Source: a virus | Length of the DNA stretch: 61,955 nucleotides | IMG/VR virus record: IMGVR_UViG_3300032288_000863 | Location: 1-61,955 of that record | Reading direction: 5' to 3' (one strand) | Shown: positions 34,608-56,276 of the stretch, in pieces | Position numbering within the stretch: position 1 is the first letter of the stretch | Layout of the letters: each line of letters opens with the position of its first letter | Position numbers and translations under genes: made by a program | Notes under the pieces: generated by a model | The model's database searches: none | What the model was told of the DNA's origin: nothing | The model's input: the letters and a program-made list of their open reading frames with translations, nothing else

Positions 34608-37055
34608 CTAGTAATACGCCGCCTTTCTAGGCGCGTACTGGTAAGGCAAGTCTACCTCATCGGACGGAAGAGTAATAAACCCTCCCTGACGGAATCTCAT
34701 TAATGCAAGTGTGGTGGCATCCACCAAGTCGTCATTTCTCCCGGCCGGAAAGTCGTTGCACTCCTCTATGACCTCCCGCGCCCAGCGCCTGTCGGGCGCC
34801 CACACGATCCCGGCAGAGAAGAGATCAGACACAGCGTTCACCCGGCTTATCTTGTCCTGCCCCCTGCCCGGGGTGAACTCCCCGAGCGGTATGCCCATCC
34901 GCCTCATCTCTTGATACAGCGCCGCACCGTTGGACTTCTTCTCTACGATGAATGCGTCTGGTTGCCACTCCTTATACTGCTCCAGCACCATCTGCTTCAA
35001 CTCCGGGAACTCCAGACGTTTCTTGATGGCGTTCAGCAGGATGATGTTGTGGTTGTTTGTCTCTTCATTAAAGAAGATCCCCCACGTCAGGAGCGCATTG
35101 TAGTCTGCCCGGTTAGACGTTTCTTGGGCAGCGTCTAGGGCCATAATAATGAAGTCACACTTGGGTGGGTCGTCTTTGTCCCATATCTGCCACCATTCCC
35201 TCTTTATTAGCGCCCCTTCCTCTGCCGTGGGCTGCTGCATGTACTGCGCCTGCCAGTACCGGGGGTCCATTCCGGCCTTCTTCGCCATCAACTCCTCCAT
35301 CGGCCAGAAGTCAGGCCACAGAGGCTTTTCATTTAATATGGCAGGGAACTCGACGACCTCCCACTCGTCAGCGTCATCATTTCTCGTCATGTGGTCGATA
35401 ATCTGCCCGGTCAGGTCCAGCTTGGACCACCGCGTATTGTGGGATACCACACCGTTAGCAATAAAGTTTTCCGTGCGCTCTACTTGAAGATCAAAAACTT
35501 CTGCTTCGCCGTCAGGAAGGATCGTCGTTATCTCGTCTAACGTGACGCTGTAAGTATTCAGCAGCGAGTCGCAAGACCTCGGGGGTTTTGCCATATCCGA
35601 CTGCAAGGTTACAGTCGTTGCAAAGCAGCCCTCGGACCTGTCCGGTATCGTGGCAGTGGTCGATACAGAGTTTTCCCCCCCAATGAGTACGGGTGTTGAT
35701 TTTAGAAGGTACTTGACCACAGACATCGCAACGGTTGCCTCTCTCTGCAACCATACTGTTGTACTGCTCAAGCGTGATGCCATACCGGCTTTTGACTCTA
35801 GCCGCACGCCGGTTCTCCGGACTGTAGCTTCTTCCTCTATACCCTTCTGCCCAACGCTGTTTGTTGTAATGCGTGCGACAAAGCCCTTTACTTTTAGCAG
35901 GCTCTGTACAACCTTCTTGAATGCAGATCTTACCTTTCCATTTACCGTGGTGTCCGACCGGATGTTTGACAGCATCGGGATTTTTTTGCCGGTACCACTC
36001 CCTTGCTCTGCACGCTCCACACAATTGCTGTTTTTTTCTTGCTTGTACGCGGTTGTTGCATCCTTCAATGCTACAAGCGACATACCCGGTTTCAGGTCTT
36101 TCAGTCTGATCCATTGCTGTTCTCCGTCAGTGTCTACAAGAAACGGATGTCTCTCGTTTGCCCGGAGAATTCTACCAGATCGTGTTTGTACTTGGTAGAT
36201 CGTATCAATACCATTTGACTTGTGGTTAAGTACCCGTGATGTGGTTATGCGTCCATCTTCGTATGTCGCTATTTCATCACCGGGGCGCAGGTCTTTAAGC
36301 GGAGTCTCGCTTCCATCAGGGCGTAACACCCCTGTATCCCCCGTCATGCACATCACCACGATGATCGCGCCTCCCGGCATCAGTCGCTGGATGGGGCCTG
36401 ACTGGAACCACTCCCATGCGGGGGCGAAGACATCGGGCCTTCCTTGCTTGGCCTCCTGCTCTGAGTGAGGATCATCAATAATAAATAGATCAGCACCGCG
36501 CCCAGCGAGAGCACCGCCCACACCAATAGCAAAATACTCTCCGTTAAAATTAGTGCCCCACCGAGAAGCGGACTTACTGTCTGCTTGAAGCTCCACTTGC
36601 GGGAAAATATCATTGTACAGATCGCTCCCGACAAGGTTCCGCACCCGTCTACCGAAGTTCACTGCCAGATCGGCAGTGTGCGAGGCCATGATGATCTTCT
36701 TCTGGGGGAACTTCCCCAGAAACCACGCTGGAGCAAGGTAGGAAATCATCTCTGACTTGCCGTGACGGGGGGCAATGTTGACGATCACCCGCTTTTTCCT
36801 GCCCGCCGCAATTTCTTCAAAGATTTTGGCAAGTTTTCGGTGATGGGGCCCCACGATATAGCCGGGGTACACGTGGTTAATGAAGTCTAAAAAGGACTCA
36901 CGTCCCTTTACTTGCGTGATTTGCGACTGATACTGCTTTAAAAGCTCCGCTACGCGACGTTTTTCCTTGTCCGGGAGGTTGGGCAGGGCGTTTTTTAGCC
37001 TTTGTATGTCAGCAAGTGACAGTTTTGGGCCAGCCGGGGGGTTTTGCGGCGTCAT
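34608..37055 (-). CDS. terL: Terminase large subunit, interrupted by an in-frame intein
   Basis: The 815-codon frame encodes a 510-residue terminase (residues 1-235 joined to 541-815) plus a 305-residue intein. ATPase motifs are IAPRHGKS (Walker A, about 94-101) and LFIIDDPH (Walker B, about 190-197). After the intein comes TRWSKLDLTG, the conserved coupling motif. The nuclease domain has acidic sites in MALDAAQ, VEKKSNG and GRNDDLVDA. It would cut and package phage DNA at the portal. The start overlaps the small-terminase stop by 4 bases (ATGA). Splicing must occur for function, because the intein splits the TRW motif from Walker B. Confidence 0.9.
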   Translation of the reverse strand: MTPQNPPAGPKLSLADIQRLKNALPNLPDKEKRRVAELLKQYQSQITQVKGRESFLDFINHVYPGYIVGPHHRKLAKIFEEIAAGRKKRVIVNIAPRHGKSEMISYLAPAWFLGKFPQKKIIMASHTADLAVNFGRRVRNLVGSDLYNDIFPQVELQADSKSASRWGTNFNGEYFAIGVGGALAGRGADLFIIDDPHSEQEAKQGRPDVFAPAWEWFQSGPIQRLMPGGAIIVVMCMTGDTGVLRPDGSETPLKDLRPGDEIATYEDGRITTSRVLNHKSNGIDTIYQVQTRSGRILRANERHPFLVDTDGEQQWIRLKDLKPGMSLVALKDATTAYKQEKNSNCVERAEQGSGTGKKIPMLSNIRSDTTVNGKVRSAFKKVVQSLLKVKGFVARITTNSVGQKGIEEEATVRRTGVRLESKAGMASRLSSTTVWLQREATVAMSVVKYLLKSTPVLIGGENSVSTTATIPDRSEGCFATTVTLQSDMAKPPRSCDSLLNTYSVTLDEITTILPDGEAEVFDLQVERTENFIANGVVSHNTRWSKLDLTGQIIDHMTRNDDADEWEVVEFPAILNEKPLWPDFWPMEELMAKKAGMDPRYWQAQYMQQPTAEEGALIKREWWQIWDKDDPPKCDFIIMALDAAQETSNRADYNALLTWGIFFNEETNNHNIILLNAIKKRLEFPELKQMVLEQYKEWQPDAFIVEKKSNGAALYQEMRRMGIPLGEFTPGRGQDKISRVNAVSDLFSAGIVWAPDRRWAREVIEECNDFPAGRNDDLVDATTLALMRFRQGGFITLPSDEVDLPYQYAPRKAAYY
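35436..36350 (-). other. Intein in terL (305 residues)
   Basis: The first residue is Cys (TGC at 36350), with block A as CMTGDTGVLRPDG and block B as RANERHPFLV containing the splicing His. The end is VFDLQVERTENFIANGVVSHN followed by Thr as the +1 nucleophile. All canonical residues for protein splicing (Cys1, block-B His, His-Asn, +1 Thr) are present. The insertion lies exactly before the conserved TRW motif of the terminase. About 130 residues form the splicing domain. The 170 or so residues between look like low-complexity shadow translation, because the DNA there encodes a nuclease in another frame. Confidence 0.88.
35512..36114 (-). CDS. HNH/endonuclease VII-type homing nuclease, overlapping the intein in another frame
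   Basis: This 200-residue protein is read in a different frame of the same strand and lies wholly within the intein DNA. GGAG sits 7 bases before ATG 36114, so it can be translated on its own. It has two N-terminal Cys clusters (CSIEGCNN...CGAC and CIQEGCTEPAKSKGLCRTH), then CDVCG, CIDHCHDTGQVRGLLCNDCN and a C-terminal helix. DHxHxTGxxRGxLCxxCN is the active-site and zinc signature of the endonuclease VII family. As a homing endonuclease it would cut intein-less terL genes. The overlap with a frame that must stay open for splicing is very unusual. Confidence 0.85.
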   Translation of the reverse strand: MDQTERPETGYVACSIEGCNNRVQARKKQQLCGACRAREWYRQKNPDAVKHPVGHHGKWKGKICIQEGCTEPAKSKGLCRTHYNKQRWAEGYRGRSYSPENRRAARVKSRYGITLEQYNSMVAERGNRCDVCGQVPSKINTRTHWGGKLCIDHCHDTGQVRGLLCNDCNLAVGYGKTPEVLRLAAEYLQRHVRRDNDDPS

Positions 37056-37841: not shown

Positions 37842-37860
37842 TCCTATCGCGGCGATAGGA
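37842..37860. repeat. 19-bp palindrome, copy 1
   Basis: TCCTATCGCGGCGATAGGA is a perfect 9-bp inverted repeat around one base. It is one of six such sites in 37.8-41.2 kb and lies 21 bases before the first early gene. Confidence 0.9.
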
Positions 37861-37881: not shown

Positions 37882-38430
37882 ATGAAAGCAATACAGTCCG
37901 TACGTGAAGCAGTAACCGTAGCCTTAAACGTCGAAGCAAAGTATGCCGAAGTGGTGCGATACTTTGGCGATCCCGGATGCTTCGATGCCGAACCGAACGA
38001 GGCCGCGAAGAAGCTCAAGGCGGAAGCGAAAGAGGAGCTGTACCAGCAACTCAGTAAGCGAGAAGGTGGCGACGCAGCGAAAGCCGCCAAGCTAACAAAG
38101 GACGCGTGGAAGGATCTGACGGGCACCGAGAAGAAGCGGCTACAGGCCGCGCGCAACCGCGTCAAGATGCTGGTCGATAACCGATGGGCTCGCATGAAGC
38201 TCACGTGGAAGCAGGCGGGCGAGGAGATGGCCACCGCTGAGGCCGCAGAGTCTGGCGAGCCTATGCCAGCGAAGGCTAAGAAAACCGTATTGGATCGGTG
38301 GGCTGCCTTCGAGGTTGAATCGACCAAGGCTGTTAAGAAGAGCCTAGAGCTAGATCCGCAACGGTATGCGGAATGGGTCGCACATTGCCGGGCAGAGTTA
38401 CAGAAGATGCTCGACGCGCGGAAACTCTGA
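37882..38430 (+). CDS. Early helical protein of unknown function
   Basis: This 182-residue, highly charged, mostly helical protein is rich in Ala, Lys and Glu. It is the first early gene, reads away from the late operon, and is followed directly by a strong terminator, so it forms a single-gene unit. The palindrome upstream may control it. Such a position suits an early regulator or host-takeover protein. I recognise no family. Confidence 0.7.
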   Translation: MKAIQSVREAVTVALNVEAKYAEVVRYFGDPGCFDAEPNEAAKKLKAEAKEELYQQLSKREGGDAAKAAKLTKDAWKDLTGTEKKRLQAARNRVKMLVDNRWARMKLTWKQAGEEMATAEAAESGEPMPAKAKKTVLDRWAAFEVESTKAVKKSLELDPQRYAEWVAHCRAELQKMLDARKL

Positions 38431-38446
38431 TCTACCTCGCCACACA

Positions 38447-38477
38447 GGGAGGAGCCTTTCGGCTCCTCCCTTTTTTT
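38447..38477 (+). terminator. Intrinsic terminator after the first early gene
   Basis: A perfect 10-bp stem (GGGAGGAGCC/GGCTCCTCCC) with a TTTC loop is followed by seven T. Confidence 0.95.
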
Positions 38478-38544
38478 GTGCCCAGCACTGGCATCGGCAC
38501 TGGTCTCGTGCGCGTGCGCGTGTCTGGCGAGCGCGTGCGTGCGT

Positions 38545-38614
38545 GTTTGTAAAGTAAAACTACTTATCATTTTGCTAAGTTTGTAAAGTAATCCTATATA
38601 GCAAATTGCTAAGT
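38545..38614. repeat. Pair of interleaved 34-bp repeats
   Basis: GTTTGTAAAGTAA occurs at 38545-38557 and 38579-38591, and TTGCTAAGT at 38572-38580 and 38606-38614. Both are offset by exactly 34 bases, about three helical turns. A conserved spacing suggests a protein-binding array. Confidence 0.75.
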
Positions 38615-38648
38615 AGGCGCGTGCGTGAGTATTTTTTTTATTTTCTGA

Positions 38649-38667
38649 TCCTATCACGACGATAGGA
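38649..38667. repeat. 19-bp palindrome, copy 2 (divergent centre)
   Basis: TCCTATCACGACGATAGGA has intact 7-bp outer arms, but the inner G of the left arm is A. It is the least perfect of the six copies. Confidence 0.8.
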
Positions 38668-38682
38668 TGGTTCAGTTACACC

Positions 38683-38707
38683 ATCATTTACTGAGTGAGT
38701 AAATGAT
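38683..38707. repeat. Inverted repeat ATCATTTACT/AGTAAATGAT
   Basis: Perfect 10-bp arms surround GAGTG. No T-tract follows, so this is more likely a binding site than a terminator. Confidence 0.75.
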
Positions 38708-38729
38708 AAACGCGAATTAGTAAAGGGCC

Positions 38730-39207
38730 GTTCCATTAGTAAAGCGTTGTTCCAGCGTTGTTCCAATTTGTAACTTAGCTAATGGAACGGGATTTCGCTC
38801 TAACTTTATGTATCGACTTTTTGGGGGTCTCGTAAGCCATTGAAAAGTTATTTCCGTGGGCTTGTTCCTTTACTTATCGAAAATGAAACTTTACGTCCGT
38901 TCCAATGTTCCAGCGATTTTCGGGGGGTGAGGGGGGGACCGCGAAAATTTGAGAGGGAGAGGGCAGGGGCGCGAGCCCACACCCATTAGTAAACCGAATT
39001 CTCCCAACAGACCGTCCTCTCTCTAAAACTACTGGAACAATGGAACATTTACCCCCCAATATATATACTTCATAATAATAATATATATACTTACTACTAC
39101 TACTACTACTAAAAACAATAACTTACAAACGCCCCAAAACCCGTATTAGTAAAGTGGCCGTAGCGTAAGCTAAGAAAAAAACTGGAACGGCGCTGGAACA
39201 ATGGAAC
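38730..39207. repeat. Iteron-like array of 11 TGGAAC/GTTCCA sites
   Basis: GTTCCA starts at 38730, 38749, 38760, 38899 and 38907. TGGAAC starts at 38783, 39033, 39041, 39183, 39194 and 39202. Within clusters the offsets are 8 or 11 bases (19 once, equal to 8 plus 11). CTGGAACAATGGAACA is repeated exactly at 39032-39047 and 39193-39208. The orientation switches from GTTCCA to TGGAAC across the middle. Confidence 0.85.
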
Positions 39208-39308
39208 AACCCTTTACAAATCCCCCAAATCTGCCCAAAACGCGCCAAAACCTACCCCGAACCCACCTCAACCCCCAAAAAACACTTCATCTTCTAAGAA
39301 AATATTAG

Positions 39309-39337
39309 TTGACTCAGAAGTAAAGTAGTGCTATACT
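39309..39337 (+). promoter_or_regulatory. Sigma70-type promoter P1
   Basis: TTGACT (39309-39314) and TATACT (39332-39337) are separated by exactly 17 bases and lead toward the small gene at 39435. The surrounding sequence is nearly the same as that of P2 at 40034. Confidence 0.85.
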
Positions 39338-39384
39338 ATTCCCAACAGTGAGAGATCGACCAAAACAACCAAACCCTAACCCCA

Positions 39385-39403
39385 TCCTATCGCCACGATA
39401 GGA
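39385..39403. repeat. 19-bp palindrome, copy 3
   Basis: TCCTATCGCCACGATAGGA has perfect 8-bp arms with centre CCA. It lies in the 5' leader between promoter P1 and the gene at 39435. Confidence 0.9.
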
Positions 39404-39434
39404 CGCACGACCAAGCCCAAAGGAGGGCACAACA

Positions 39435-40033: not shown

Positions 40034-40062
40034 TTGACTCTAAAGTAAAGTTATGCTAGACT
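40034..40062 (+). promoter_or_regulatory. Sigma70-type promoter P2
   Basis: TTGACT (40034-40039), 17-base spacer and TAGACT (40057-40062). The spacer and flanks match P1 at most positions (common core AAGTAAAGT, TGCTA, ACTATT). It drives toward the DUF3150-like/MoxR cassette. Confidence 0.8.
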
Positions 40063-40216: not shown

Positions 40217-41146
40217 ATGAACATGATTACCTATACCCCTGACAACATCCCGGCCAGCATCGCTGCCCCGTCGCACATCACCAGCCTGCAAACAGCAGGC
40301 ATTCTCGTAGGGGTGCGTGTCCGCACCACCACGGGCAGTGTGAAAGACCACGAAGCGAGCGAGGAGATCACGGCGCAGAAGAACGCGACGCACGGCGCAG
40401 CCAGCGTGACCAAGCACCTGCTCGACGGGCCGGAGTTCAAGGCGCTAAAGAGTATGTCGAGCGCAGTACGTAACGGCATGGTGCGGTTTTGTTTCCGGTG
40501 GTCCGACGACTGGTGGTACGTGCCGATGGCCCGCTATGACGCCTACTGCACGTGGGAGGCGGAGATCATCAAGCAGTTTGACGAGCGACTAGAGGCCTTC
40601 TTGCACGCATACGTGGCGCTCCGTGCTGACGCTGCGTTCCGGTTGGGCGACATGTTCAACGCGTCCGAGTACCCCACGGTAGAGGAGTTGCGTCGCAGGT
40701 TCGGCATCACGCCCCTGCGTGCCGACGTGCCAAGCGGGGACTTTCGCGTACAGATAGCCCAAGACTTGGCCGATGATCTACGCAAGCACTACGTGAACCA
40801 GACAGCCGAGGTGGTCTCCGGCATGGTCGCAGCGCAGCGCGAGCAGTTGATCGAGGTGATGAAGTCCCTCGCCCACACGTGCGGGACCGAGGTCAAGCAG
40901 AACAAGAAGGGCGAGACGGTCGTCGCACGGCGCAAGCTCCACGAGTCGACGCTGACAAAAGCACTGGAGATGATCGACACATTCCGGCGGTTTAATCCTG
41001 CCGGGGATCAGGTGCTGGAGGACATCCGCACGAGCCTTGAGCAGGCGCTGTCTGGCGTGACTATCGAGACCCTGCGCGAGTCCGACACGGTGCGCTCCCA
41101 TGTGGAGCAGGAGGTGACCAGCATATTGGACAAGTTCCGTCTGTGA
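40217..41146 (+). CDS. DUF3150-like protein, partner of the MoxR ATPase
   Basis: ATG 40217 follows GAGGAAAG and gives 309 residues. The protein is mostly helical with Trp/Tyr-rich FCFRWSDDWWYVPMARYDAY near residue 90 and a long C-terminal helical region (SLEQALSGVTIETLRESDTV). Proteins of this type occur with MoxR-like ATPases and CobT/VWA proteins in phages; I assign the family from memory. The gene begins a GC-rich cassette: 63% GC in bases 40861-40920. Palindromes flank it on both sides. Confidence 0.6.
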   Translation: MNMITYTPDNIPASIAAPSHITSLQTAGILVGVRVRTTTGSVKDHEASEEITAQKNATHGAASVTKHLLDGPEFKALKSMSSAVRNGMVRFCFRWSDDWWYVPMARYDAYCTWEAEIIKQFDERLEAFLHAYVALRADAAFRLGDMFNASEYPTVEELRRRFGITPLRADVPSGDFRVQIAQDLADDLRKHYVNQTAEVVSGMVAAQREQLIEVMKSLAHTCGTEVKQNKKGETVVARRKLHESTLTKALEMIDTFRRFNPAGDQVLEDIRTSLEQALSGVTIETLRESDTVRSHVEQEVTSILDKFRL

Positions 41147-47375: not shown

Positions 47376-47378
47376 GTG

Positions 47379-49226
47379 ATGTTCATCACGATTGATTTCG
47401 AGACGTACTACGGTACGGGCGTCAGTCTGACCAACCTGACAACAGAGGAGTACATAAACCACCCCGAGTTCCACGAGATCGGCATGGGCATCAAGATCGA
47501 TGACTGGCCGACTGAGTGGATTACGGGACACGATGCTATCGCTGCGCGGCTGAAGAAAATCAATTGGAGTGAGGCAGCATTGCTCTGCCATAACACATTG
47601 TTTGACGGTGCGATACTGGCATGGCGTTTTGGCGCGGTGCCTAGATTCTATTACGACACGCTCTGCATGGCGCGGGCGATACACGGAGTAGAAGCAGGAG
47701 GCTCGCTGGCAGCACTGGTATCGCGGTATGGGCTGGGTGCAAAAGGCACAGAGGTCATCAATGCCAAAGGCAAGCGCCTGATTGACTTCACCGAGCATGA
47801 ACTGGCTCGGTATGGCGAGTACTGCATCAATGACGTTGAGCTAACCGTAGCGTTGTTCTCCAAGCTATGTAAGAACTTTCCGCCAAGCGAGTTTGACCTG
47901 ATCGACATGACGATCAGGATGTTCACATGTCCTACGTTGTTTGTAGACGACGCACTGTTAGTTGAGCGCCTTGAGAATGTGCGCGAGGAGAAGCGCGAGC
48001 TATTGGCGGGGCTGATGGCGGAGCTTGACTGCTCGGACGAGGAGTCGGTACGCAAGAAACTGTCAAGTAACCCGCAGTTTGCCGAGCTATTGGAGAAACG
48101 TGGTGTAGTAGTCCCTCTCAAGATAAGCCCGACGACAGGCAAAGAGACGTTCGCACTGGCCAAGAATGACGAGGGGTTCATCGCTCTACAGGATCACGAA
48201 GACCCCGTGGTTCAGCAACTGTGCGCGGTGCGTCTGGGTACGAAGTCTACGCTGGAAGAGTCGCGGATCGAGCGGTTCATCGGCATCGGGGCGCGAAACA
48301 AAGGCAAGCTACCTATCCCACTCAAGTACTACGGGGCACACACCGGGCGCTGGTCAGGCAGTGACTCCGTGAACTTTCAAAATCTTCCGAGTCGGGACAA
48401 GAAAAAGAAGTCCCTCAAGAACTCCATCATAGCGCCGCCCGGACACGTCATCATTGACTGTGACTCCTCACAGATCGAGGCGCGGGTGCTGGCGTGGTGG
48501 GCAGGGCAGCTTGACGTAGTGCAGGCGTTCGCCCGGAAGGAAGACATCTACTGCCAAGACGCGAGCAAAGTTTACGGACGTGCTATCACTAAGGCTGATC
48601 CGGTCGAACGCTTTGTCGGCAAGACTATGCGACTGGGCCTCGGGTATGGTACTGGCGCAGCAAAGTTACAGCACACACTGAAGACAACGCCGCCCGGAGC
48701 TAATCCTTCGCTGGAAGAATGCAAGCAGTGGGTCAATACGTGGCGCGTGGCGAACTCCAGCATCACATATCTCTGGCGTGAGTGCGATCAAGCACTGAAC
48801 TACATGATGGGTGGCGCGGCTAAGTCGATCTCCGTGGGTATGCACGACATCGTGACGGTTAGCAGTGCGGGGATACGTTTGCCAAACGGTTTGTATATCC
48901 GATACGACAACCTTAGACGGGACGGAGAGAAAGTCATTTATACCAGCCGCAAAGGCCCGGTGAATATCTGGGGCGGCGCGATGGTAGAGAACATCGTGCA
49001 GGCGCTGGCGAGGATCATCGTGGCGCAACAGATGCTCTGGATACAGCGGGAATATCGGGTTGTTCTCACCGTGCACGACGCTGCGATGTGTGTAGTGCCA
49101 GAAGAAGACTTGACTAATGCGCTGGAGTACGTAACCTTGTGTATGTCTACCACCCCACCGTGGGCACGGGGCTTGCCAATTGCGTGCGAAGCCAAGCACG
49201 GTACTTCCTACGGAAACTGTAAATGA
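47379..49226 (+). CDS. DNA polymerase, family A, with 3'-5' exonuclease
   Basis: This 615-residue enzyme starts at ATG 47379, 7 bases after AAGGA. Exonuclease motif I is TIDFET (about 4-9). Polymerase motif A is IIDCDSSQIEARVLAW (about 355-370). Motif B is R411-x3-K415-x7-YG, and motif C is VHDAAM (565-570). The residue equivalent to E. coli Pol I F762 is L419, not Phe or Tyr. It is expected to replicate the phage genome with the SNF2 helicase and primase-helicase downstream. The enzyme is short compared with Pol I and lacks a 5'-nuclease domain, as in other phage Pol A enzymes. Confidence 0.92.
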   Translation: MFITIDFETYYGTGVSLTNLTTEEYINHPEFHEIGMGIKIDDWPTEWITGHDAIAARLKKINWSEAALLCHNTLFDGAILAWRFGAVPRFYYDTLCMARAIHGVEAGGSLAALVSRYGLGAKGTEVINAKGKRLIDFTEHELARYGEYCINDVELTVALFSKLCKNFPPSEFDLIDMTIRMFTCPTLFVDDALLVERLENVREEKRELLAGLMAELDCSDEESVRKKLSSNPQFAELLEKRGVVVPLKISPTTGKETFALAKNDEGFIALQDHEDPVVQQLCAVRLGTKSTLEESRIERFIGIGARNKGKLPIPLKYYGAHTGRWSGSDSVNFQNLPSRDKKKKSLKNSIIAPPGHVIIDCDSSQIEARVLAWWAGQLDVVQAFARKEDIYCQDASKVYGRAITKADPVERFVGKTMRLGLGYGTGAAKLQHTLKTTPPGANPSLEECKQWVNTWRVANSSITYLWRECDQALNYMMGGAAKSISVGMHDIVTVSSAGIRLPNGLYIRYDNLRRDGEKVIYTSRKGPVNIWGGAMVENIVQALARIIVAQQMLWIQREYRVVLTVHDAAMCVVPEEDLTNALEYVTLCMSTTPPWARGLPIACEAKHGTSYGNCK

Positions 49227-53441: not shown

Positions 53442-56276
53442 ATGAGAAAACAATTTTACGAGAAAGTATTGCCGACGCAGGGTGTCTATTGTGCAAGCGG
53501 TATCATAGACGGAAAGACCAGAAACCGCTTCGCAGAGACACTCACCGAATTACTGACGATAGTAGAAGAGCTAGAGGAGGAGCAGTTAAATGTATTCGTA
53601 GCTTTCAGTACGTTCCAGAATCACAGCCGCAAGGCGGATAATGCGCTGTTCACGCGCTGCTTTTGTCTTGATCTGGACGTGGGCGAAGGCTCCAAGAAGT
53701 ACGCGGACAAGAACGAAGCGATCATTGATCTCTTTAATTTTGTAGAAGGTCATGGGCTACCACCACCGATTCTGGTGAACTCTGGTTCAGGCATACACGC
53801 GTACTGGCCGTTTGACGACAACGTGCCATCAGACGAATGGTTACCCTATGCCATACGGTTCAAGTCGTTTTGCCTGAAGCACATTAAGATTGACCCGGCT
53901 GTGACAGCAGACAGGGCACGCATCATGCGCTGCCCCGGGTCACTTAACTACAAGACCGATCCTCCCATGCAGTCGGGGTTACTTACCGATGAGATGTGGG
54001 AGTACAGTTTTGATTTGTTTAAAGAATTCTTGAATGAAGTAGAACCAGACAACTCACTGACCAGTGTACTTGCGTCGGCTCAAAAAGGGTTGGATGACGA
54101 CACCGGCAGCATCGCCAAGATCGACCCTAACTTTGAGACCGTCTTTGAAGTACTGGCTCAAAAGAGTTTGGACGACGAGGGCGGCTGTGCTCAGATTAAG
54201 TATGTGTTGGAGAACGCAGCGACATTGAGCGAGCCCTTGTGGCGGGCAGGGTTGTCCCTTGCCCGTGCATGTGTGGATTGGGAGGAAGCGATCCACATCA
54301 TGTCCTCCCCGTATCCTAAATACTCCCCCGAAGAGACACTGAAAAAAGCCAATGGAACGATCAATAAAGACGGCAAGTTCATGCCGCATAGCTGCGTGGT
54401 GTTCGACAACGACAACCCCGGGGTCTGTGACAACTGCCCCCACAAAGGACACATCACAAACCCCCTCGCCCTTGCCAGAAGACTTAAAGCCCCGACGAGT
54501 GCCCCGGAGAACGCAATTCGGGAGGACGAGAATCCCGAAGAGATTCCAGTCTACATAACGTACCCAACGGAGTTGGAACCGTTCAAGCGAGGCATGAACG
54601 GGGGCATCTGGTACACCCCGCCACCCAAGAAAGATAAAGAAGGTAACTGGATGAACCAGAAGGAGGTCTGCCTGTGGCGGCACGATCTCTACCCAATCAA
54701 GCGTATGTATGGCCCTCACGAGGGTGAGGCACTGTTGATGCGGCACATCATGCCGCATGATGAGGCACGAGACTTTCTCCTGCCTATGTCGTTCTGTGGT
54801 TCTTCAGAGAAGTTCAAGGATTTGTTCATCAGACATGGCGTGTTCTTCAATCTGAACGACACATCAATAATGGTCGAATACATCCGCAAGTGGGGAGAGT
54901 TTATGTTGAATAAGCAAGGTGCTGAACAAACCAGAATGCAAATGGGGTGGACTGCTGATGGGCACGGGTTTGTTATCGGCAACATGGAGATTCAGCGTTC
55001 TGGGAAGGTTGCTAAGACTGCTGCGTCTCCGTTGGTGAACAGTATCGCCAAGTTGCTGAAGCCTGTAGGTAACTACGACTTGTGGAAAGAAGCAGCGCAG
55101 AAGTTGGATCGCCCTGCGTTTGAGATGCACGCGTTCGCTTTACTGTGCGGGTTCGGTTCTCCTCTTATGCCCTACACTTCTACCAAGGGCGTCAGCGTGT
55201 GCTACACAGGTGGGTCAGGTAACGCCAAGACCGGTGCGCTGTACGCTGCGCTAAGCCTCTTCGGAGACCCGGTGGACTTGAGTCTGGCAGGGGGCAAGGA
55301 GAGCGCAACGGATAACGCGCTGGTGCAGTGGTACATGGGCCTTAAAAACATAATGATGGGGCTGGACGAGGCGTCAAACCGCAAGCCGGAGGAGGTGTCT
55401 AATCTTGTCTACAAGGTATCTCAGGGTAAAAGCAAGCTGCGGATGCAGGCGTCAGTGAACGCAGTGCGCGAGATAGATTTAACCGCGGCACTCATAACTT
55501 TCCTTACATCGAACCAATCGCTAACTGACAAGTTAACGTCATTTAAAGCCGCTCCTGATGGGGAACTTGCTCGACTGATCGAATTCCAGATTGATCGTCC
55601 GCTGCCTCTTGTACAGAACCCGGCGCTGGGCAAAGAGATATTTGACGTGTTTCGTTTGAACTACGGGCACGCAGGGCCTGAGTTCATCAAGTATCTTTTC
55701 GCTGTGGGCGACGACTACATCCACGGGCTGGTAACTCAGTGGGCAGATAAGTTCGGGGAAAGTTTCGGTAAGGACACTACTTATCGGTTCTATGAGGCGT
55801 TGGTCTCGGTTGCCTTTGCTGCTGGGCAGTTGGCAGCGGAAGCGGGGATCATTAACTACGACCTCCAACGTATCTACGCGTCAGTCATTGCCCGGATCAT
55901 TTCGATACGAGACGGCACGGTCAGGATCAATAAGATAGATTACGAGTCGGTGCTGGGTGAATTTCAGAACCGGCACCAGTCTGGTGTGTTGGTGCTTAAC
56001 GATGACCGGGTGATGCGTGAGCCTCGCTCTGCGTTGGTGGGTAGGGTGGAGATAGATACCCGAATGTTTTATGTGTCGAAGCGTGAGCTAAAACTTTTCT
56101 TGTCAGACCAGCAACTTAGTGAACGCGAGTTTGTTACTTACATGAAGGAGAAGGGAGTCCTAACCTTTGAGGGTAAGCAACGTCTTACTAACGGGTGGCC
56201 GGGGATGAGCACCAACGCTCCGGTTGCAGTCTATGGGTTCAAGAACGCCATACCCGACGAGTTCTTCAATGGATGA
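53442..56276 (+). CDS. Primase-helicase fusion (AEP-type primase plus DUF927-like helicase)
   Basis: The protein has 944 residues. The N-terminal region has CFCLDLDV with an Asp-x-Asp pair (77 and 79) and SGSGIHAYWPF, which fit an archaeo-eukaryotic-type primase domain. A Cys cluster lies near residue 325 (CDNCPHKGH). The C-terminal half has Walker A GGSGNAKT (about 591-598) and a Walker B-like GLDEAS (about 640), matching DUF927-type helicases. It would prime and open DNA for the Pol A enzyme. The start codon has no visible ribosome site and lies 13 bases after a terminator. Confidence 0.8.
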   Translation: MRKQFYEKVLPTQGVYCASGIIDGKTRNRFAETLTELLTIVEELEEEQLNVFVAFSTFQNHSRKADNALFTRCFCLDLDVGEGSKKYADKNEAIIDLFNFVEGHGLPPPILVNSGSGIHAYWPFDDNVPSDEWLPYAIRFKSFCLKHIKIDPAVTADRARIMRCPGSLNYKTDPPMQSGLLTDEMWEYSFDLFKEFLNEVEPDNSLTSVLASAQKGLDDDTGSIAKIDPNFETVFEVLAQKSLDDEGGCAQIKYVLENAATLSEPLWRAGLSLARACVDWEEAIHIMSSPYPKYSPEETLKKANGTINKDGKFMPHSCVVFDNDNPGVCDNCPHKGHITNPLALARRLKAPTSAPENAIREDENPEEIPVYITYPTELEPFKRGMNGGIWYTPPPKKDKEGNWMNQKEVCLWRHDLYPIKRMYGPHEGEALLMRHIMPHDEARDFLLPMSFCGSSEKFKDLFIRHGVFFNLNDTSIMVEYIRKWGEFMLNKQGAEQTRMQMGWTADGHGFVIGNMEIQRSGKVAKTAASPLVNSIAKLLKPVGNYDLWKEAAQKLDRPAFEMHAFALLCGFGSPLMPYTSTKGVSVCYTGGSGNAKTGALYAALSLFGDPVDLSLAGGKESATDNALVQWYMGLKNIMMGLDEASNRKPEEVSNLVYKVSQGKSKLRMQASVNAVREIDLTAALITFLTSNQSLTDKLTSFKAAPDGELARLIEFQIDRPLPLVQNPALGKEIFDVFRLNYGHAGPEFIKYLFAVGDDYIHGLVTQWADKFGESFGKDTTYRFYEALVSVAFAAGQLAAEAGIINYDLQRIYASVIARIISIRDGTVRINKIDYESVLGEFQNRHQSGVLVLNDDRVMREPRSALVGRVEIDTRMFYVSKRELKLFLSDQQLSEREFVTYMKEKGVLTFEGKQRLTNGWPGMSTNAPVAVYGFKNAIPDEFFNG

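Follow-up and report, generated by a model that had tools for sequence, protein, structure and literature searches.

A 480-base array of short TGGAAC repeats, found in one virus record 61,955 bases long (the window, meaning the whole stretch of DNA that was analysed), is very probably the replication origin of the phage genome, a conclusion strongly supported by sequence comparison. Taken as a whole, the reading of the array as a P4/SaPI-type origin, the kind served by self-sufficient initiator helicases such as P4 alpha and SaPI Rep, whose repeats would here be bound by the phage's own primase-helicase through a C-terminal winged helix, has in our estimate a probability of about 0.86. A first-pass annotation had already proposed a candidate origin here, and the proposal is strongly supported by conservation of the array, by a layout in common with the annotated origins of P4 and Sfi21, by the link between such arrays and replicative helicases in phages unrelated to this one, and by an AT-rich tract. 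What was computed here comprises the sites and their conservation, the layout in common with annotated origins, the tract of low stability, the family of the helicase and its winged-helix fold. For uncultured phages of a large group, the analysis places the origin and names the likely initiator, and the natural switching of repeats under a kept layout provides ready-made pairs for the study of helicase recognition and loading at origins.

The repeat array and its surroundings

Eleven exact copies of TGGAAC or its complement GTTCCA lie within positions 38730-39207. That this is far above chance, as first claimed, is borne out by 2000 dinucleotide shuffles of the surrounding intergenic region (38431-39434), which averaged 0.52 copies and gave 4 at most, while no 6-mer of any sort was present more than nine times in any of 300 shuffles of the same region. 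The signs of the sites run ---+ -- ++ +++, in agreement with the reported switch of orientation across the array, and the gaps in order are 19, 11, 23, 116, 8, 126, 8, 142, 11 and 8 bp. The proposed rule that offsets are 8, 11 or their sum therefore holds within clusters but not between them, where gaps of 23, 116, 126 and 142 occur. The exact repetition of a 16-base block, CTGGAACAATGGAACA, was recovered at 39032-39047 and 39193-39208, and no conserved ORF was found in the array region, as expected from the earlier statement that it holds no gene. The features of the array, its flanks and the genes referred to below are as follows.

38446-38471, plus strand: terminator-like hairpin with a T-run (from sequence), which ends the 37882 gene ahead of the array
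38730-38788, minus strand: outer left cluster, GTTCCA at 38730, 38749 and 38760 with an inverted TGGAAC (plus) at 38783; ---+, gaps 19, 11, 23
38899-38912, minus strand: inner left pair GTTCCA-GTTCCA (38899, 38907), 8-bp offset
38913-38945, minus strand: pyrimidine-plus-A-tract element ccccccgaaaatcgc, just 5' of the inner left pair when read in the repeat sense, by eye
39014-39032, plus strand: pyrimidine-plus-A-tract element cctctctctaaaactac, 5' of the inner right pair, by eye
39033-39046, plus strand: inner right pair TGGAAC-TGGAAC (39033, 39041), 8-bp offset
about 39056-39120, no strand: AT-rich tract, candidate DNA-unwinding element, from a stability calculation
39183-39207, plus strand: outer right cluster, three TGGAAC (39183, 39194, 39202), gaps 11, 8
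39309-39337, plus strand: sigma-70-like promoter TTGACT-17-TATACT for the rightward early genes, a consensus match only (10 of 12 positions)
40217-41146: conserved early protein, among the rightward early genes
41301, plus strand: AAA ATPase, rightward early/replication genes
42511, plus strand: DUF2201 VWA protein, rightward early/replication genes
47376-49226, plus strand: PolA, rightward early/replication genes
50174, plus strand: SNF2-like helicase, rightward early/replication genes
53442-56276, plus strand: primase-helicase with DUF927, proposed initiator, from profile and fold matches
55929-56273, plus strand: C-terminal winged-helix domain (about residues 830-944), proposed repeat reader, from predicted fold

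The AT-rich tract and a promoter had both been placed to the right of the array. The promoter-like site does lie there, but the tract is inside the array, between the inner and outer right clusters, and one 60-bp stretch of it, at 39060, has the lowest stability in the window (-0.968 kcal/mol per step, the next being -1.075). Inner pairs at 8-10 bp are also found in P4, Sfi21 and the relatives, and in several relatives, including L251 and L249, which use other repeats, a stretch of pyrimidines and then an A-tract can be seen by eye ahead of the inner pairs. An inverted site that stands 23 bp before the outer right cluster in the relative L001 has no match in the window within one mismatch.

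Candidate terminase and structural genes run leftward from 37735, and the rightward genes between 37882 and 56276 are early and replication genes. The GC-skew check suggested at first pass gives a cumulative minimum at about 37 kb, which counts in favour of an origin, although the divergent transcription that coincides with it would also explain it. The candidate large terminase gene (34608-37055, minus strand) has an apparent intein, seen by eye in the translation, with an HNH-like ORF (35512-36114, minus strand) nested inside it in another frame. On the early side, the promoter-like sites at 39309-39337 and 40034-40062 and those of L001 and L002 have GTAAAGT in common in the spacer, and ATTAGTAAAG is also present four times near the array, which may point to a site for a shared regulator. 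A palindrome, CCTATCGNNNCGATAGG, recurs near the early genes at 37843, 38650, 39386, 39614, 40148 and 41164 (one copy with a mismatch), and relatives have palindromes of their own, namely TCCTGACGNNNCGTCAGGA in L002, GCGTATTACCCAATACGC in L011, CCTATAGTCGACTATAGG in L014 and GTTCTGACA...TGTCAGAAC in L246; these early-gene palindromes are possibly phage-specific operators.

Conservation of the layout and replacement of the repeat

Relatives in IMG/VR, found via the AAA protein, carry 11-12 sites in similar order upstream of the AAA gene, with the position of the array kept between leftward terminase and rightward early genes. A pattern scan for three tandem TGGAACA units returned at least 120 stretches, and at least 56 loci, the window included, passed a filter for six or more sites, both orientations and an AT-rich stretch; about 24-31 of these, among the matches listed, have terminase or early genes in common with the window. 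Many matches to the triple pattern were set aside as probable coding repeats, having a single orientation and gaps in multiples of 9, and L002 (79% in the AAA protein) was dropped as an array-less relative, its contig starting just past the array. In an alignment of sites made partly by eye, the 8- and 11-bp spacing, whose persistence in related phages was a check suggested at first pass, proves not to be strict (8-13 bp in relatives), while spacings of about 22 and 43-45 bp do recur.

Records chosen by their relatives of the primase-helicase reveal a further property of the arrays. TerS was found in 8 of 17 such records, and a mixed-orientation array lies nearby in all eight, built from TGGAAC in G001, G015, G019 and G023, from RGAACA in G004 and G021, from CGGCACA in G010 and from TGACACA in G014; two further records, G012 and G018, have CGCACA/GCACAA arrays. 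In the four of the eight that use another repeat, the cluster order and the AT tract are kept by eye, most clearly in G014. Such complete replacement of the repeat under a kept layout suggests that the array is probably read by a single sequence-specific phage protein. The primase-helicase records that lack an array are mostly fragments in which TerS was not found, which makes the absence uninformative.

Among cultured phages, a nucleotide search with the region gave no match, and a literature search for TGGAAC as a phage replication-origin repeat returned nothing evident among the matches listed. The cultured relative Pseudomonas phage Rollin has only a weak candidate array, near the start of the record (L368:260-679), with eight TATGCA in mixed orientation and a repeated AAAGGTAG palindrome; no array was found in the cultured relative RHph_TM3_14A, most of whose record was examined, and no convincing one in phiC31. 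TGGAAC arrays of the form ---+++ also adjoin tyrosine integrase genes (L022:10799-10914 and L118:9404-9884), and these are perhaps integrase arm sites, not origins.

Outside the clade, arrays of this kind are linked to a different type of helicase. A TGGAAC array occurs with a D5_N/DUF5906 gene in seven contigs among the matches listed (L020, L024, L029, L050, L054, L066 and L094), adjoining the gene in six and standing about 2.4 kb from it in L054. When loci were chosen by the D5 protein, 41 of 79 had a mixed-orientation array, compared with 2 of 79 in the control with shuffled blocks, and these arrays use many different repeats and lie mostly 0-200 bp downstream of the gene. Within a close set of D5 proteins the repeat is TGGAACA in L192 and L198, TGTCACA in L194, L195 and L200, and TGGTACA in L196. 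The columns with residues in both groups that separate TGGAACA from TGTCACA users number three in the winged helix and 0 of 394 in the core, a comparison of five proteins, one of which (L198) has its array about 2 kb from its gene; it is only suggestive.

The spacing itself recurs across these groups. Among 68 distinct arrays, mostly of TGGAAC, minus-to-plus gaps fall at 20-24 bp in 44 of 137 cases and plus-to-minus gaps at 42-46 bp in 29 of 97. In 29 D5-linked arrays with other repeats, opposed-site gaps of 21-24 and 42-46 bp and like-site gaps of 8-13 bp all exceed a jitter control, in which the observed counts were reached in 10, 6 and 0 of 2000 trials, respectively; in some arrays the script took overlapping 6-mers of one repeat, which may shift opposed-site gaps by 2 bp. 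It is conceivable, at slightly under an even chance, that this spacing (8-13 bp in clusters, about 22 and 43-45 bp between opposed sites) represents an ancient code by which opposed helicase rings are loaded, one that has outlasted replacement of the repeat and is common to the DUF927 and D5 groups. The common layout may reflect either convergence or very old descent, both being possible because the winged helices of the two groups have no homology detectable by HHalign.

The primase-helicase as probable reader, and the alternatives

The first-pass annotation had suggested the proteins at 37882, 39435 and 53062 as binders of the array; these were unsupported, and the primase-helicase at 53442-56276 is a better candidate. 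Its helicase profile (residues 434-944) matches two solved structures, the SCCmec protein Cch (PDB 5dgk, E 7e-14) and SaPIbov1 Rep (PDB 8tch, E 1e-10), the remaining weaker matches being short and to pentatricopeptide repeat proteins. The same two structures head a Foldseek search (E 1.9e-11 and 1.9e-8) with an AlphaFold2 model of mean pLDDT 75. The C-terminal 150 residues form a predicted winged helix most like the equivalent domains of Cch and Rep, with VIA Z scores for the model of 9.7 to Cch 439-556 and 9.3 to SaPIbov1 Rep 452-561, and of 8.6 to a DNA-binding protein in complex with oriT DNA. SaPI Rep itself recognises its iterons (PMC7581432), and we infer that the window primase-helicase is most likely the reader of the TGGAAC repeats. 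Residues that track the repeat among window-type helicases are equally frequent in the core (149 of 829) and in the winged helix (21 of 115), making that comparison uninformative.

An origin could also have its repeats read by another phage protein, such as that of 40217-41146, which would then recruit the helicase. In 24 array loci, among the matches listed, a gene for a 40217-like protein lies near the array, and the two helicase groups with repeat and layout in common have winged helices that are not detectably homologous, which also counts in favour of such a reader. Yet no protein of this kind was found in G010 and G014, which keep the layout (although these records may be incomplete), nor in the clusters of any of the seven D5-linked loci, and the recognition by SaPI Rep of its own iterons (PMC7581432) is a precedent for direct reading, all of which leaves a separate reader unlikely.

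Two further explanations would remove the array from replication altogether, and we consider each very improbable. The repeats might serve packaging initiation (pac or cos) as sites bound by the small terminase, given that the array adjoins candidate small and large terminase genes in the window and its clade and that a TerS-like gene stands next to the array of L107; however, the arrays of D5-linked phages adjoin the helicase gene instead, the annotated replication origins of P4 and Sfi21 have similar layouts, and TerS identity to the window does not track the repeat, being 66% in G021 with a different repeat and 49% in G015 with the same one. Operators for divergent early and late genes, which would make the array a transcriptional control region, fit its place at the divergence of transcription and the promoter-like site about 100 bp to its right, but not the position of arrays downstream of the helicase gene in D5-linked phages, nor an AT tract less stable than any other DNA in the window, and the different palindrome CCTATCGNNNCGATAGG at the early genes is better placed as an operator.

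At an origin read directly by the primase-helicase, the winged helix would bind the repeats, and the two opposed groups of sites (left ---+ --, right ++ (-)+++) would place helicase rings on either side. Melting would take place in the AT-rich tract that separates the inner right pair from the outer right cluster, allowing the helicases to load as opposed rings and then to unwind outward in a bidirectional start, with the primase domain making primers that the phage PolA (47376-49226) would extend.

Comparison with known origins

In P4, the annotation (NC_001609) gives type-1 repeats at the origin at 9310-, 9320-, 9331-, 9353+, 9396- and 9406-, that is, ---+-- with gaps of 10, 11, 22, 43 and 10. 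The left half of the window array agrees in all signs and in the gaps of 11 and 22-23, but has 19 for 10 and 116 for 43, whereas L034/L113, with ---+-- and gaps of 9, 10, 22, 43 and 9, are within 1 bp of P4 at all five. L034/L113 continue in their right part as ++ 55 - 13 - 22 ++, and in arrays of this sort, such as that of L034, the second half resembles the P4 crr, annotated as ++--+ with gaps of 9, 43, 18 and 14. P4 has its origin and crr at separate places, about 4.7 kb from each other, while the window has both kinds of half in one element; the P4 repeat also differs (TGTTCACC), and P4 alpha belongs to another helicase group than the DUF927 helicase of the window. A likeness of P4 GGTGAACA to GGAACA was dropped, as the layout match needs the opposite sense. 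The origin of Streptococcus phage Sfi21 (NC_000872 annotation) is, like the window's, a non-coding array in which copies of a 6-mer in either orientation surround an AT tract; its gaps are 23, 45, 8 and 83, several of them in common with window-type arrays, but it uses the repeat AGTAAC, adjoins the primase gene and has its outer sites arranged otherwise.

In phage-inducible chromosomal islands (PICIs), two iteron sets flank an AT-rich region (PMC6092414), and the likeness to SaPI/PICI extends to short iterons in two groups with AT-rich DNA between them and to an initiator helicase with a C-terminal DNA-binding domain (PMC6092414, PMC7581432). The window has copies of one short site, some in each orientation, on both sides of an AT-rich region and encodes a helicase of the Rep/Cch kind with a predicted C-terminal DNA-binding domain, its DUF927 helicase being a relative of SaPIbov1 Rep (PDB 8tch) in both sequence profile and predicted fold. 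It is not a SaPI/PICI replicon proper, in which rep lies directly upstream of the origin, as the array at 38.7-39.2 kb is not directly downstream of the helicase gene at 53.4-56.3 kb; the two are about 14 kb apart, whereas SaPI and most D5-linked arrays adjoin their gene. The window also differs from SaPI in having primase and helicase fused and in being a phage with its own PolA. The closest solved relative of the window helicase is the DUF927 helicase Cch of SCCmec (PDB 5dgk), which is a cassette-chromosome helicase without a fused primase. The kind of origin is already known, and the features in which the present one varies are the unlinked initiator gene, the presence of both P4-like halves in one element and the switching of the repeat under a kept layout.
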